24,214 bases of DNA from Funneliformis mosseae (taxonomy: Eukaryota; Glomeromycota; Glomeromycetes; Glomerales; Glomeraceae): contig CAJVPP010000953.1 in the NCBI GenBank assembly GCA_910592005.1, positions 1 to 24,214 on the forward strand, in the 5' to 3' direction. How positions within the stretch are numbered: position 1 is the first letter of the stretch; each line of letters starts with the position of its first letter. This document shows, piece after piece, positions 12,930 through 22,871 of this stretch. The position numbers and the translations under genes are program-made. The notes beneath the pieces were generated by a model. The model saw only the letters and a program-made list of their open reading frames with translations. It did no database searches and had not been told where the DNA came from.

Positions 12930-13375
12930 ACTGAATATAATTTCGCCTGAAGACACCGTAAGTTTGTATGTAAAATGTTTTCGATATTTGCAGTTAGTCC
13001 TTTGAAGATCATTTGACAGGGTGCATGTTGGCAGAATGACTGTTACTGTAATAATTATTTTTTTATAAATACGAGCTATTGTATTTGCATATAAACACCT
13101 CAACAAGCCTTCTTTATTCGCTTTCGCTGCCGTTTTATCTTTATAATTTTAATTTGTAACTTCGTTTATTTTTTAATTTCCGATTTATTTTATTACACAA
13201 TTTTTCGTAATTGCGTAGTTTTAATTAAATAGAGTTTTATTGATTGGCATTTATTTAGTTTAATATATTGACATTGCGAAAGTGCCAATTTTACTCAATT
13301 AAAACTTCAGCTTACATTTGAAATTGTTTATAAATACATAAACGAAAAACTGAATACAACAATATTGTATCATCA
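12930..13375 (+). mobile_element. Single-arm copy of the fold-back repeat family
   Basis: It shares with 16680-17300 a series of blocks in the same order: GCAGTTAGTCCTTTGAAGAT with CATTTGACAGG, then TATAAATACGAGCT, TTTTTAATTTCCGATTTA, TTGCGTAGTTTTAATTAAAT, GGCATTTATTTAGTTTAATA, then TTGTTTATAAATACATAAAC and GAATACAAC. The related copy at 17 kb is interrupted between the GGCATTT block and the TTGTTTAT block by about 100 bp that are absent here. There is no ORF. It lies between the 3' ends of the convergent genes A and B. Confidence 0.6.
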
Positions 13376-14061: not shown

Positions 14062-16038
14062 TCATTGCATAAATAAATTGATAAAAGAAAAATATGCAGT
14101 TTCCAAGAACTGAACATAAGGATGAAGGCGTTTGTCACGATGCGTGCTTGGTTTGAAATGGGTCCACCAGCGAACTGGTAAAAAAACAAGGTCCATGAGC
14201 GACTGAGAAGGCGGGCAATCGTCGTAGCAAGAACAAAATACGCCTTCGGCGATAACTGAACCCGCCCGAGTGTAAAAGCTAATATATTCATCGTGCCATT
14301 CCTATAATTAATAGTAAGAGAATGTTAAGTATCTATCGGATATTTTCAGAAAATTTATTGCCAATCGTAAGAAATAATGTTCTGATCCAACTTACATTTG
14401 TTATATCATCAACAATGACCGGAACAAGCTTATTATTATCATCAGATACTAAAATCTTGGTTTTTCCTGGATGTAAATCTTTGGCAAACATGATAGATAA
14501 ATTTTCATTGAAGACATAATGAGTGGTTGTGAGCCGTAAATGACCTAAAAGCGAATAAGTAACAGTTATTTTGAGTGTTTTATTTATTTTAACTTATAAA
14601 TAATTTGAAATAGTACTTTTATAGCCGTCTGGTTTAGTGAAGCTTATCTTGGTAAATTTTTCTTCACGATCGAGTTTGCCAATGTGAGCGATAAGGTAAA
14701 CATTTGAAAACTCTTCAATATCATTTCTGATGTTTGACAACACTCGATCCCCTACTTGAAGTTCCGACATTCGAACGATTCTTCCAGATTCAAGCTTAAC
14801 TCGGGTTTCAAGCCAGAAACAACCTCCTTGATTAAGTTTTTTTTGAAGTTCTTCATTTTCTCGTCGAAGGTCACTTATACTTTTTTCAAGATCACTAATT
14901 TTTCATATATGCTATCCTTAAGTTTTTCAATTTGTTTATCATTTGCAATACGTGCTCTCTCATCATCTTCAGCCTTTCTTTTCAAGTATTCTGCTTCTGC
15001 CCTAGCTCTACCTTCCGTTCGTTTAATCTCATCATATTCTCTCTGTCTCTTTTCTTGTTCTTCCCTTGCAATCCGCACGAGTTCTTCTTGCTCCTTTCGT
15101 GTCTTTTCGAGCAATTCGTTTGTATATATTCCATTTAGGTCATAAATAGTATTTTCTAACTTTTCTAGACATTTTTCATGCATTTGAGTACCAGGGGGAA
15201 AGATGTCTGGATTCGGAGAAATGGCCCACCGATTACCCATGCGATTGACGAACATGCGAACTTTATCGTTCCAAGACTTTTCAAAATTTTTTGGATCATT
15301 TGTATTTTTCTTGTTACAATTCGAGAAGACAGAAATCATGTATAAAAAAGCTTGTTCTCCGAAAAACGTCGATATACCATCGATCACGTTTTTTTGCTCA
15401 TCCGTAAACCTTTTGGCTTCTATTAACAGCACCGTACAGTTAATCCTAGATTTAACACAACTTGATTTAATAATTACTACTTACCAAAAACAAATAATAT
15501 GGCCTTGATTCCATAAGCACATCTTTGTACGGTGCGCGCGATTTCTTCCATGATTTCTTCATTGGGCTTTTTGGTATCAAAAATCCCAGGCGTGTCGATA
15601 ATGTTGTAAGTTTTGTCATTAATTGGTAAACCGCGGAGCTAGATTTGTTGGTTGTCGAATCCTAACATGTTTGAAAAAATTTCGGACCTTGTATTATTTT
15701 TAAAACTACATTTAATATTATATTAAGTTCATATCGATATGTTAAATGCTTACAAAATCTTCGGAGACCTTAAAAGCGCAATTTTCATCTTCCGAGATTC
15801 TTAGCAAATGATTTCCCAACGTACTCTTACCAGCACCTAAGTAATAAGAATGAATGTTTCCAGCAATGAAGGAAAGGCACAATATCAATGCATACCTGTT
15901 TTTCCAACTAAGAGTATAACTGGCGCATTGATCTCCAACGGTGGCAAATTTTCTTCATTGATATCCAACTGGGACAATTTTTCTTCATTTATATCCAACG
16001 ATAGCGAACTTTCTTTATCCGACGGTACTTTTTGTATC
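14062..16038 (-). CDS. Gene B: AIG1/GIMAP-type GTPase, coiled coil and hedgehog-type Hint domain (5' end uncertain, one frameshift)
   Basis: Minus-strand exons in order are 16038-15896, 15836-15754, 15638-15485, 15419-14617, 14544-14396 and 14301-14062 (stop TGA at 14062). Three 10-residue repeats come first, then the P-loop GKTGAGKST, YNIIDTPGIFDT (G3) and AILFVF joined to EAKRFTDEQ. The segment FFGEQAFLYMISVFSNC follows, as in AIG1/GIMAP GTPases. A long charged coiled coil (NELLEKTRKEQEE...ENEELQKKLN) then runs directly into GGCFWLETRVKLESG and LQVGDRVL. TTTHYVF, AKDLHPG, EGVFCSCYDD and VFLPVRWW come next: the start, T-x-x-H, S-C-Y and P-x-R landmarks of hedgehog Hint domains. Known Hint domains cut before the Cys. 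There is a -1 frame break at about 14885-14905, and the switch I region is short. The first coding exon was not found, and the true start lies upstream of 16038. Either a live gene with an assembly indel or a recent pseudogene is possible. Confidence 0.8.
15918..16007 (-). repeat. Three 30-bp units encoding a decapeptide repeat before the P-loop of gene B
   Basis: On the minus strand, three 30-bp units encode SLSLDINEEK, LSQLDINEEN and LPPLEINAPV, immediately before ILLVGKTG. The third unit is diverged at its end. Such short N-terminal repeats can grow and shrink by slippage, so length variation among alleles is likely. Confidence 0.75.
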
Positions 16039-16513
16039 CTTATTAGGATTAAGATTAATGAAAGAATGAAAAAATTTTATGAAGCATAGGTAATAATTGA
16101 GACTTACGTGTTATAGAACAACTTATCGATTTATTATAGTCTTCCTTTTTTTTATAAAAAAATGAAAATGAAAAATGACAGAAAAAGAAGTAAAATGTTG
16201 ATCATGGCAGATTCTTTTTAGATCTAGACCTTATTTAGTAATTCCAAAAAAGAAACTAACGATAATAATAAATTTAGTTTTTTCTCTAAGGGAATTTGTT
16301 GTCCTGATTCAGTTAGTTTAAATTGATTAACACTAAAATTTTTAGGTTTATTCCATTAATGGTTTGAACATATGGCCAATATAATGTATCTTCTGATAAT
16401 TACTAGACAATATTTCCTTGTATGATGTGAGGACGGGTTAAATAAAAAATTTGGTTTATTTAGATATATCGTTGTATTCAGAAACAATTTTGTAATGTAA
16501 GCAGAGGGTATTA
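16039..16513. other. 5' flank of gene B, first exon unresolved
   Basis: On the minus strand a strong donor, GTAAGTCTC, lies at about 16107, and a pyrimidine-rich acceptor ends at 16039. At least one exon therefore lies upstream. The minus-strand ATG at about 16205 opens a hydrophobic stretch (MINILLLFLSFFIFIFL) but stops before the donor. No exon that joins exon 16038-15896 in frame could be fixed. The rest, 16210-16513, is plain A/T-rich DNA. Confidence 0.35.
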
Positions 16514-17690
16514 ATGAATAATTATTGAATAAAAATGAAGTAATTGTGACAAATATTTATTTAAAATATCAAATTAATCAGTGTTGCCTCAACGTCGGCG
16601 GTTTACACTTTCGCTTGATCAATATTTTAAACTATAAATGCTAAATACTAAATTCTAATTAATTAAGACTACTGTTACAATTAAATGCAAATTCCGGCCG
16701 AAATCTTCATAATTTCGCTTGAAAATCGCTCTTGATAATTACAGTTATTCCCTTTGACGATCATTTGCCAGGTTGTCACGGTGCCAGTTTGTCAAGACGC
16801 CAGTTTGTCAATGTGCCAGTGTGACAAATGGTCAAAATTCCAGGATGGAATAATTAAAGCTTTTTTATATATACGAGCCGGAAATCCCATGCTCGCCTTT
16901 AGCATATTTCTTTGAAAAACATTCCCTTCGCTACCTTCCCTTTACACCTTCGCGATAATTTCGATTTCGCACTTTTAAATTTTATAAATTCGCATTTTGT
17001 AACACAGTTTATTATTTTATTTTATTTTTAATTTCCGATTTTATTAGTAGTTTATTATACAATTTTTATGTAACAGTTTCGTAGTTTTATTAATTAGGTG
17101 GCATTTACTTAGTTTAATATATTGATATAGCGAATGTGTAGAGCGCCAACGTTGAGGCAACACTGATTAATTTGATCATATAAAATAAATTCTTGTCAAT
17201 ATTACTTCATTTTTATTCAATAATTACACATTAAAACCTTCTGCTTACATTTACAAATTGTTTATAAATACATAAACGAAAGAACTGAATACAACACTAC
17301 GCAAATTACGAAACTATTACGTAAAAAATGTAATTATAAAATACTAATAAATCGGAAATCAAAAATAAAATGATAAACGATTACATATGCGAAATTATAA
17401 AGTTAAAAAGGCGAAAATCGAAATTATCGCGAAGGTGTAAAAAGGATTGCGAAGAGAATGTATTCATATAAATATATTAAGGGCGAGCATGGGATATTGA
17501 GCTGTTTTAGGATTTCCAGCTCGTATATATAAAAAAAAAAATTAAGTCAGCTTGGCATCTTGAACATTTGTCATACCGTGACAGCCTGGCAAATGATCAT
17601 CAAAGAGACTAACTGTAAATATCGAAAGCGATTCACATGCGGAGTTATGAAGATTTCGGCCGGAATTACATTCAATCGCGATACAATTAT
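16514..17690. mobile_element. 1.1-kb fold-back element with two nested inverted repeats
   Basis: Two inverted-repeat pairs interleave. Pair 1 is 16514-16615 against 17127-17228, sharing TTATTGAATAAAAATGAAGT, AAATTAATCAGTGTTGCCTC and AACGT. Pair 2 is about 16690-17125 against 17235-17670: AATTCCGGCCGAAATCTTCAT and its reverse complement near 17650, TATATATACGAGC and GCTCGTATATATA, CCCATGCTCGCC and GGCGAGCATGGG, CACCTTCGCGATAATTTCGA and its reverse complement. The CAGTGTTGCC/GGCAACACTG core of pair 1 is bordered by ATTAAT on both sides, possibly a target duplication. There is no ORF. It sits between the divergent genes B and C. It looks like nested or duplicated non-autonomous DNA transposons. 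Confidence 0.7.
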
Positions 17691-18797: not shown

Positions 18798-18855
18798 ATG
18801 ATTGAAGATCTTCTAAACAGAACTTTCTCTCTTAAACCAAAGGAATACAATTAAA

Positions 18856-21800
18856 ATGTTTTACGATACCAGTGACACGGATGAAAAAAGAGGTTTCGTC
18901 AGTGAAACCGATAAGAAGGAATGTCCACATGACGGTAAACCAATTACTATGATCGAAATGTCGCCAAACGGCAAATATATTGTTACATATAGTGAAATAG
19001 ACGATACTGTTGTCGGGTGGAATGTTGACGATAAAGAAGGCAGTCTTGAGCCAATCAAAGCCGATGAAAACGATTCACACATTATACACATTGAACACAA
19101 AGAGAGTAAGATCGTTCACATGTGTGTTTCCGATAAAAAGATACTAGCGTATAGTAATGTCGAATATGGATCACGTGTTTCGACTTCTGATCTGAAATCA
19201 AATGGTATACATGATCATTTGAGTAAGTACAAATTTGATATCTATAAGTTTTATTATTGTGATTAATTGATTAATTAATGTATTTTGTTTATTAGAAATC
19301 ATTGATATGAATCATCAGGACCGAAAAATAGAGCTATATTTTAAATATTTTTTGGATAAATTTTATTGCAGCTTTAACGCTAGAGAACAATTTATTTTGT
19401 TTGGCGTTGACGGTGATATACAAGAACATAATATTGTCTGGGTCTATTTAACGCGAGGAAACAGATGGATGTGTCAAAAGATTTATACAGTACCTGCAAT
19501 AACAGAGATAATAAGCATATCAAAATTTGATAAAATTTGGCTACGCTCAGATGATCATATCCATGAATGGAATATTATGAATAAGGAAACGATGGTCATC
19601 TCAAGAATCTCACGCGGGGTAATTGGTAATTTTTTTTAGAGAAAAAAAAGAAAAAATATTAGGAACTAATTCTTATTTCTTCAATTAAATAATAATAGAT
19701 TAAAACGAAAGATATTAGAATTTCTGATTATAAAAAATATACCTGTCTAAAAATAAAGAACAATATCATTGTTTATTCAAGTTTGATGGGGATTCCTATT
19801 CCTATCGCTTCGGTGGACTTAAATGATGGTGCGAGTATATTTTATTACACGTGTGCTATAATTATAATTATATTGACGTTTCTGGTAATATTTTTTTTCA
19901 GAATTACGACTGTTCAAGTTTATGAAAAATACTCCTGAATTACATTGTTTGCTGCTGACTTTAATAGATCAAAATTCAAACAATAAAATTTTGGATTATA
20001 TCACAAAGTACTGTCGGAATATTTGCTTAGATCAATTTAAGAAGCATAATCGACCATCCACAGAATACGAGGCTGAAGATTTACCAAACCTTCCTTGCTT
20101 ATTTTACAATTGCCAATCAAACAACTATATGATTTTAGTTGTAGGAGGATATGTTTGGAAGATTCAAATTGACAAGATTGATTTCGATCTTTCGTTGGAG
20201 ATAAAGGCTGATTATGATGATCAATTCACGGAAAGTTGGATGACATATTTTGATCGTGATGATAGTGAAAATTATGAAAATCCATTTATTCTAGATATGA
20301 ACATTGACAAAGATATACTGTTTCTACAAATACCTAAAAGTTATAAAGATGAAGATATTAGATTGGATATTTTCATTCTTAATGAAATTATTGGATTGCG
20401 CGTTTTTAATGTTAAAAATGAGCAAATTTGCGAGTTATTCAAAAAAACTAAATATGAAATAAAAGTAGAGATAGAAGAAGTCAAGATATTTAAGACCAAA
20501 GAAATTGTCATATCAACAAACTTTGGCGTTTTTATTTTCCATCTAAATGAAAAGAACGAATTAATTTTGGATTATTTTCAATACATACACCATCAACTGA
20601 GGCAACAAGTTAACCTTAATTGGTTGAGTAAATTTATGTTCATCTCCAATAAATATCTTGAAGATGATAGAAAACTTCCTATTGATGGATGGGTTGCATA
20701 CGTAAAGAATGATCGAGAAAATTTTTTAAAACATGGGACGGCATTATTGATGTTTGCTATTGAAGTTCATGATTTAAAATTAATTAATGATATCTATAAG
20801 AAATGTTTAAATTATTTTAAACAAGACTTAGAAAGGAATAAGGCGTTTTTAACCATCATTAATTCTTCGATGCCATTTCTGAAGATGTGTTATCCTGAAT
20901 ATCTTTCAAGGTATTCATTAGATACAGCCATGATAATAGATTCTACGGATTATAAGAAAGAACATCTAAATATTTTACATCTTTACCCCTATTCAAAAAA
21001 TATTAAAACGATTAATTTGACTCGATCGATTTTTATGTCTAAATATAATTTTCAATTGGGAACAATAGATAATGACTCATTTGCATTTCTATTATATCTG
21101 TTTTATGTTATCATAGAATGTTTCGCGTTTTTTTTAACATTACCTATTTCCTTTTCGATATATTCCCTTTTAGATGGGTTTCACTTTATTAATAATATTT
21201 ATTTACATGACGGGTTCCTTTCTTGTTATTATATTATAGTCTATTCGTTCAAAAAAATCTATTCAAAGTTATTTAACCAAGACTTAAGCCCCATGATTAC
21301 TTTTATGGTACCTTACATCAAATTTGTTAGCTATCCTGAAGAATACACTTGGTGGGAATTAATTCGACCTCAAACTAGTCCATTTGGAGATACGATAACC
21401 GAAGAGATTTATAAAACTTGGGATGGTGAAGCATTAATTAATTTCAAGTGGAATGCATACGGAAAATATTATTATGCGATAATTTGGTTCACGTTTAATG
21501 CATTTCTCATTTGCTTCGTCATTGCTACAACAATATCCGAAATATCTGATGAAATCAGAACTCAACTTTTAATTGCTTCAACATTTCTTGGATTTATTCA
21601 CTTGACCGTTGAAATTCGTCAATTTATTTATAGTCCCATTAAATGGTTTCAGGATTATCGAAATTTACTTGGTATTTTGAAAGTATTTTATCATTTATTT
21701 TTTGTATTGTTTCTGTGATTGAAAAAAAGAAGTGATTAACCTTTTTGCTCCATTATAGATACGACAGCTTACGTTTTGCCACTAAGTGCCTCCTTTCTTT

Positions 21801-22871
21801 TGTTTCAGATAGATTACCATAAATATAATGATTACCTTAGTTATTCCACTTTATTTGGATTTGCATGTCTATTTTTGGATTTAAAATTCATATTCTTTTT
21901 CAGAGTGTTTGAGCAATTTGGTGTTTACTTTACGATCGTTATAAATGTCGCGAAAAAAATCTTTTATTTCATTTTTCTTTTATTTCTCATACTTATTGGA
22001 TTTGCTCATGCTTTTTATATTCTTTTAAAGCCAAGAGAACGAGAACGCGTTAATTTAGATGAACGTGTAGAAAGTAACGACACCAATAATCCCTGGAATA
22101 TGGTTGATGCTTATTACCAAGTACTACCGAATGGATCGATTAGTAAAGAGCCATTCATAGTTCAAAAGCCTGATGAAAATACAAACATGTTTTCCCATTT
22201 TAAAACCGCGCTACTTGCAATGTACTTTTCTCTAACGGGTACATACATAAGTATTTTTAAACGTATCATTTATTAATCATTCGAATGTTTAATACATTAT
22301 TTTACTCGAAAATCTATTATAGGTGATGCAAGTGCCATGAGCAAATGGATATACGTAGAAAATCCATTCTTTGTCGCGATAATGAGTGGGTTCTCATTCT
22401 TGGTCGTTGTATATCTCATGAATTTGCTCATCGGTTTGTTAAATATAGAGATTGGGAAAGATGACAATCGAGTTTCGTATTTGTTGCAAAAAGCAGAGGT
22501 TATTTTTATTTTTATTTGAATCCATATAAATATATTGTTTTGTTTTAAAAAAAATTTTATTTTATCTATTCCTCTTTTAATAGATTTTGAAAGAAATTGA
22601 AATGTTTTACATGTTACCACATCAAAGGCGTTGGAAATCTTGGTTCCCGGACACCATGTAAGTGATCGTCGTCAACTCTCTTTTCATTCTTTATATTCTT
22701 TGTTTAATGCATTAATTAATATCGTTTACCTTACTTAGTTATTATTACGCTAATGTTGATACATCGCGTAGAAAGGTTAATGAGTTAATTAAGAATGATG
22801 AATGGAGACCCGAAGAATTTCCAGAGATGAAGAGAAACTTGTTAAAAATCCTAGATGTTCAAGATAATTAG
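18856..22871 (+). CDS. Gene C: WD40-like/TRP-like ion-transport membrane protein, 8 exons
   Basis: Exons 18856-19222, 19296-19618, 19699-19834, 19902-21671, 21759-22238, 22323-22498, 22584-22657 and 22739-22871 join in phase to 1152 residues. The first ~600 residues are soluble and propeller-like (MSPNGKYIVTYSE then VVGWNV). Six or more hydrophobic segments follow: FAFLLYLFYVIIECFAFFLT (about 668), AIIWFTFNAFLICFVI (about 800), LLIASTFLGFIHL (about 832), YVLPLSASFLLF (about 870), and a long one with IFYFIFLLFLILIGFAHAF. Next come the pore-like FKTALLAMYFSLTGD (about 1013-1028) and FLVVVYLMNLLIGLLNIEI, a typical last helix of ion_trans/TRP-family channels. The tail is charged (KEIEMFYMLPHQRRW). 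A cation-channel role is inferred from topology, and selectivity cannot be read. The donor of exon 3 is ambiguous: GTGCGA at 19829 and GTATAT at 19835 both keep the frame. AATAAA at about 23071 could serve for polyadenylation. Confidence 0.85.

Follow-up and report, generated by a model that had tools for sequence, protein, structure and literature searches.

The window analysed here is the whole stretch of 24,214 nucleotides from Funneliformis mosseae, apparently an entire contig (C953:1-24214 of an 82-Mb assembly), and its minus strand carries the exons of a gene in which a long helix and then a hedgehog-type Hint (Hog) module follow a GIMAP-like GTPase of the AIG1 type. We hold it fairly probable, judging from sequence, that this locus, whose frame is broken in the assembly, belongs to the AIG1-Hog family (GIN1 / MEROPS C46), its relatives being probably cytosolic GTPase-helix-Hog proteins for which self-cutting is proposed. 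The family is known, and the most likely reading of it is that the Hint domain would detach itself by cleavage, possibly leaving the GTPase with a lipid. The sharper, testable point is the combination of a complete cleavage site with a histidine at the position of the sterol-activating aspartate of hedgehog, i.e., the same swap that was engineered in Drosophila hedgehog.

Domains, relatives and the locus as assembled

All the landmarks quoted in the original prediction were found on the minus strand, namely GKTGAGKST (split by an intron), DTPGIFDT, a long stretch of charged, helix-like character, GGCF, GDRVL, TTTH, SCYDD and P-V-R. The profile check proposed there bore out both domains. Indeed, when separately translated pieces were run against Pfam (cut-offs of 27 bits for AIG1 and 29.7 bits for Hint), the piece extending from G3 to the helix matched AIG1 (E = 8e-23, 81.3 bits) and the last piece matched Hint (E = 4.5e-19, 69.3 bits); the short P-loop piece reached 19.3 bits with AIG1, below the cut-off. 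Compared with the PDB by sequence, the Hint piece matched Drosophila hedgehog entries 6td6 (1.5e-07), 6tyy (7.5e-07) and 1at0 (8.5e-06). Among 14 control genomes, none exceeded the Hint cut-off and eight exceeded that of AIG1, a profile that also matches other GTPases. Because of these eight controls the AIG1 label alone is weak, and the family profile, whose top solved structure was GIMAP7 (1.4e-36), followed more weakly by GIMAP4, 5 and 2, is therefore the stronger evidence for the GTPase.

The intact ortholog from F. caledonium (P0016, 542 amino acids) is 98% identical to the window protein. The original prediction had asked for the Hint fold to be modelled, and the P0016 model contains it, with Cys1, TxxH and the SCY cysteine, the range 346-491 pairing with residues 258-403 of the 6tyy chain (ends only). 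A long helix was predicted at 247-341 and two tail helices at 496-512 and 524-541. The tail resembles a sterol-recognition region, in that the profile alignment extends through HWY and a helix-loop-helix is predicted, which is a likeness only.

A Hint search of the assembly matched three contigs (6 candidates, 6 scored), and the proteins of the other two, C106 (497 amino acids) and C1873 (471 amino acids), also carry AIG1 and are open through their modelled exons. In C106, one unbroken frame of 340 residues runs from inside the P-loop through the GTPase and the linker to the first Hint motifs. PF04548 followed by PF01079 within one protein was found in C106, in C1873 and in all 42 relatives chosen as described below; the C106 frame and these 42 relatives rule out that the fusion arose by chance or as an artefact of gene models or exon joining. 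The same domain order, which it had been suggested to look for in other Glomeromycotina, occurs in two-domain relatives from Rhizophagus, Gigaspora, Dentiscutata, Cetraspora, Diversispora, Acaulospora, Entrophospora and Ambispora. In a tree of 44 rows, the window ortholog, C106 and C1873 fell into separate, well-supported groups, and the fusion therefore predates their split. Hence, the claim that GTPase, helix and Hog module stand in one protein holds for the intact relatives (C106, C1873 and 42 of 42); at the window locus itself, with its two frame shifts and no visible ATG, it does not stand as it was made.

The exons can be traced on the minus strand from about 16147 down to a stop at 14062, as follows.

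16108-16147, minus strand: putative first coding exon (KEDYNKSISCSIT), from tblastn with P0016 residues 2-17 and reading; no ATG at the P0016 start site
15896-16027, minus strand: exon with the N-terminal extension and the first half of the P-loop (VILLVGKTG); 5' boundary from AG and agreement with P0016
15754-15836, minus strand: exon from the second half of the P-loop (GAGKSTLGNHLL) to KVSEDF, by reading and translation
15485-15661, minus strand: exon with the G2 region (DSTTNKSSSAV) and G3 (DTPGIFDT), by AIG1 match; frame shift within, single frame in P0016
about 15621-15625, minus strand: frame break 1, in a short coding-strand A run, one base off when compared with P0016
14617-15419, minus strand: exon with the remainder of the GTPase, the long helix (247-341 in the P0016 model), the GGCF cleavage site and the first half of Hint; frame shift within
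14899-14903, minus strand: frame break 2, shortly ahead of GGCF in an A run that separates IYEK from ISDLEK, when compared with P0016
14819-14821, minus strand: Cys1, the Hint nucleophile of GG/CF, where cutting is predicted to separate Gly from Cys; conserved in all 42 relatives
14684-14686, minus strand: His46 (LIAHIG), aligned with the sterol-activating Asp of hedgehog (D303 in Drosophila)
14669-14671, minus strand: Asp of LDREE, which the alignments do not place at the sterol Asp
14396-14544, minus strand: exon with TxxH (Thr 14530-14528, His 14521-14519) and the middle of Hint, by reading and translation
14062-14301, minus strand: exon with the end of Hint including SCY (Cys 14229-14227), the sterol-recognition-like tail (P-V-R, HPY) and the stop

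The order AIG1 then Hint holds in the window only when the frame breaks are read across, and frame break 1 separates the G2 stretch from G3. A short intron in place of frame break 2 was considered and rejected, as no GT-AG pair that joins the frames and keeps GGCF was seen by reading; the deposited gene model, P0017, does splice there but loses GGCF. An in-frame acceptor bypassing frame break 1 also exists and is used by P0017, with removal of the G2 stretch. Pfam still labels P0017 as AIG1 and Hint despite the dropped G2 region and nucleophile, and caution is called for with this model, in which the catalytic cysteine of the window copy is lost at a frame shift. Unless both frame shifts are assembly errors, the window copy probably makes no full protein.

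Active-site residues and the histidine at the sterol position

Conservation was scored in two sets. The first alignment (A1) comprised 42 proteins hand-picked out of 139 listed (120 of 162 matches being listed in one search) for the presence of both domains and for length, leaving out AIG1-only, Hint-only, fragmentary and near-duplicate rows. The wider set comprised 94 fungal rows, i.e., 91 proteins hand-picked for a Hint entry out of 135 listed, together with W4, C106 and C1873, and takes in damaged models; P0017 was omitted from both because this model lacks Cys1. At a mean column identity of 30%, Cys1, Phe2, His46, the threonine and histidine of TxxH, and Ser-Cys-Tyr were invariant in A1 (42/42). 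In the wider set, Cys1 was cysteine in 89 rows with 5 gaps (89/89 scorable), and the TxxH threonine was kept in 79 rows, with 3 other residues and 12 gaps (79/82 scorable). The TxxH histidine was found in 80 rows (2 others, 12 gaps; 80/82 scorable), the SCY cysteine in 82 (1 other, 11 gaps; 82/83 scorable) and His46 in 83 (1 Phe, 10 gaps; 83/84 scorable). On the GTPase side, DTPG was present in 42 of 42 relatives and the G2 threonine in 39 of 42. From these residues the active site looks competent for an N-S acyl shift involving Cys1, the threonine and histidine of TxxH and the SCY cysteine. The tail motifs P-x-R and H-P-Y were mostly kept (P in 38, R in 35, H in 40 and Y in 38 of the 42), the tail being only 28 residues long in two relatives, P0032 and P0033. 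As for the residue before Cys1, it is glycine in the window, alanine in C106 and threonine in C1873; the Gly-Cys pair that had been predicted as the cleavage site is present in the window, and the relatives, with glycine in 19 of the 42, do not support it as a rule of the family.

The original prediction had placed the aspartate used for sterol transfer in LDREE. This assignment was ruled out, the residue aligned with the sterol aspartate being the histidine of LIAHIG, five residues earlier. Pairwise phmmer, a MAFFT alignment of 95 rows with Drosophila Hog and a profile comparison agreed on this placement. Counted from Cys1, the histidine is residue 46 in 41 of the 42 rows (50 in P0136), which is also the number of the hedgehog aspartate. 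The family profile gave 75.8 bits with the D46H hedgehog chain (6tyy) and 69.8 bits with the wild type (1at0).

Statements on papers cited here by PMC number refer to passages of their text. The hedgehog mutant D303A was cut with dithiothreitol and did not mediate full sterol attachment (PMC9163320), whereas D303H kept activity and structure, and coprostanol and epicoprostanol reacted better with it (PMC9163320; PMC8529194). Since the engineered D46H enzyme is active and accepts a wider range of sterols, the missing aspartate is no argument against lipid attachment, and by analogy a lipid-coupled self-cleavage of AIG1-Hog proteins is plausible. A natural histidine in a fungal Hog module was not mentioned in the passages collected, which did not include the primary papers of 2002 and 2019, and the word histidine occurs 0 times in the main text of PMC2362128, figures set aside. 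A literature search returned no paper linking 24-ethylcholesterol to arbuscular mycorrhizal fungi.

Proposed reaction, known relatives and competing readings

Family members are probably cytosolic proteins built of a GIMAP-like GTPase, a long helix and then the Hog module, and the cleavage, lipid adduct, membrane anchoring and location that we infer for them would come about as follows. Cys1 would attack the preceding peptide bond in an N-S acyl shift, aided by the threonine and histidine of TxxH. The resulting thioester would then be resolved by a hydroxyl lipid held in the helix-loop-helix tail, with His46 acting as the base in place of the hedgehog aspartate. The predicted product would be the GTPase and helix bearing a lipid ester on the new C-terminus; alternatively, resolution by water would lead to plain release of the GTPase and helix. 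Since reading the intact relatives revealed no secretion signal and none is reported for GmGIN1 (PMC2362128), the reaction would run in the cytosol. If a lipid is ligated, sterol attachment would no longer be confined to secreted animal proteins, and mass spectrometry could identify the substrate.

Human GIMAPs are not known to have a Hint domain. Compared with GIMAP2 and GIMAP7, the AIG1-Hog proteins P0016, C106 and C1873 contain no separate hydrophobic anchor among their 19-residue stretches; the maxima of mean hydrophobicity (1.07, 1.45 and 1.64, respectively) fall within the GTPase or at the Hint end. Inteins typically end in asparagine, followed by an extein. In contrast, the Hint end carries here the cysteine of SCY (42/42), after which only the tail follows, with no extein. 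The differences from the Hog module of Drosophila hedgehog (1AT0) are His46 in place of the aspartate, the variable residue before Cys1, and the GTPase that replaces the Hedge domain. In line with this, Pfam listed no Hedge domain for the intact paralogs or the 42 relatives, their N-terminal part being the GTPase.

The architecture had been taken as undescribed in the original prediction; it is already known, as GmGIN1 from the same species, the C46 family of Glomeromycotina and animal proteins attest. Glomus mosseae, the source of GmGIN1, is a name that we take to be a synonym of Funneliformis mosseae. GmGIN1 shares with the window family the AIG1/IAN-type GTPase followed by Hog, with motifs J, K and an L-like region. 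It was described as a bona-fide Hog behind an AIG1/IAN/IMAP-like GTPase and, in a further difference from hedgehog, without a signal peptide, with reference to Requena et al. 2002 (PMC2362128), a paper also cited in PMC6956056. A survey of 2022 reported a huge expansion of MEROPS C46 (AIG1 and Hint) in Glomeromycotina and its absence from the other fungi analysed (PMC8778642). This family shares both Pfam domains and the lineage with ours; its members were called peptidases with a putative mating role, and active-site residues were not discussed in the passages of that survey (PMC8778642). Besides, transcripts of R. irregulare with AIG1 and hedgehog homology were reported, a possible role in appressoria being cited (PMC6956056), and an Aig1 G-protein was listed among putative mating-response genes (PMC7490403). 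An AIG1 domain with a C-terminal Hint/hedgehog domain, i.e., the same order as in the fungal family but in animals, was described in the coral Acropora millepora (PMC3723955) and the snail Biomphalaria glabrata (PMC7053062).

Several observations weigh against a self-cutting and possibly lipid-leaving AIG1-Hog member at this locus. The window copy has two single-base frame shifts relative to the intact P0016, each in a short A run. No ATG was found in the window, by reading and tblastn, where P0016 begins, and the deposited model P0017 is devoid of the G2 region and Cys1, its splices bridging both shifts. Because completeness guided the choice of the 42 relatives, invariance in A1 is favoured. 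Unlike in hedgehog, the residue before Cys1 is variable (Gly 19, Asp 7, Ser 5 and others including Ala, n = 42), and the sterol aspartate of hedgehog is absent. The predicted template modelling score (pTM) of the P0016 model is only 0.48, and the arrangement of the domains is therefore not predicted. P0016, C106 and C1873 show no hydrophobic start (hydrophilic by reading, no predictor run), and hedgehog processing takes place early in the secretory pathway (PMC4695875), unlike the cytosolic reaction proposed here.

In our view it is close to an even chance, with the balance slightly against, that the window copy has only recently become a pseudogene and contributes nothing to a family that is real and active. 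The two frame shifts and the lack of a visible start speak for decay, as does a decayed relic of the same subfamily at C1751:15700-16208, according to which copies do die. However, the protein is 98% identical to the intact P0016 and, unlike the relic, keeps all catalytic residues. Moreover, each shift amounts to a single base in a short A run, which is also a common type of sequencing or assembly error. A different reading concerns the reaction itself. Hint may cut by hydrolysis or thiolysis, as a self-removing C-terminal cap that would switch the GTPase on and leave no lipid. This would agree with the absent hedgehog aspartate, the unconserved residue before Cys1, the 28-residue tail of P0032 and P0033 (2 of 42 relatives) and the report that hedgehog without its sterol region was cut without sterol attachment (PMC7242414). 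Nevertheless, we regard it as a possible reading that we do not favour: His46 is kept in 42/42 and in 83/84 scorable rows of the wider set, and the mostly kept P-x-R and H-P-Y, together with the predicted helix-loop-helix, exceed what hydrolysis needs.

It appears very unlikely that the Hint domain has lost its catalytic activity and now acts structurally or as a binding module. Although the literature passages yielded no biochemical test, and the TxxH threonine column shows 12 gaps and 3 other residues in 94 rows (many of these rows being partial models), all 42 relatives keep Cys1, TxxH and SCY without exception, at a mean column identity of 30%. Returning to lipid-coupled self-cutting, a far-reaching form of it seems to us rather unlikely, namely a lineage-wide set of cytosolic self-lipidating GTPases in arbuscular mycorrhizal fungi, in which a natural-histidine Hog would attach the end of the coiled coil to a hydroxyl lipid, be it a membrane sterol or not. 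If true, an intracellular protein outside animals would carry a lipid ester as its anchor, and the substrate range would be wider than that of hedgehog, as with the engineered D46H.

Copies and surroundings of the gene

Besides the window itself, a search of the assembly gave one partial relic (82%) and two short matches, with no intact second copy of the window gene among them. The decayed Hint relic at C1751:15700-16208 (L018) belongs to the subfamily of the window and contains stops, with the TxxH histidine changed to asparagine and the SCY cysteine to tyrosine. No record named GIN1 was present among the matches listed (120 of 162 in one search), and GmGIN1 may correspond to the window copy, C106, C1873 or a fourth gene. 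Proteins of F. caledonium and F. mosseae are 98-99% identical (P0016 with the window, P0001 with C1873), and those of F. geosporum 84% and 91%. The near-identity of the first two may reflect either close sister species or a question of assembly labelling.

On the plus strand, gene pieces extend over 18817-22276, with an open frame of 609 amino acids that has no Pfam match, followed by Ion_trans (E = 2.1e-8) at 21740-22276; weak WD40-like matches, below the cut-offs, lie at 18817-19266. Upstream of the AIG1-Hog gene, a foldback element resembling a miniature inverted-repeat transposable element (MITE) occupies 16473-17667 and is made of nested inverted repeats with arms of 93, 95, 75, 55 and 33 nt that are 84-87% complementary. 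At least 140 pieces matching it were found on dozens of contigs of the same genome (best 40 of 314 candidates scored). Direct repeats at 13153-13284 and 16996-17138, 74-84% alike, flank the gene, the second set lying inside the foldback; on the downstream side of the gene, 13153-13284 probably represents a piece of a related element.
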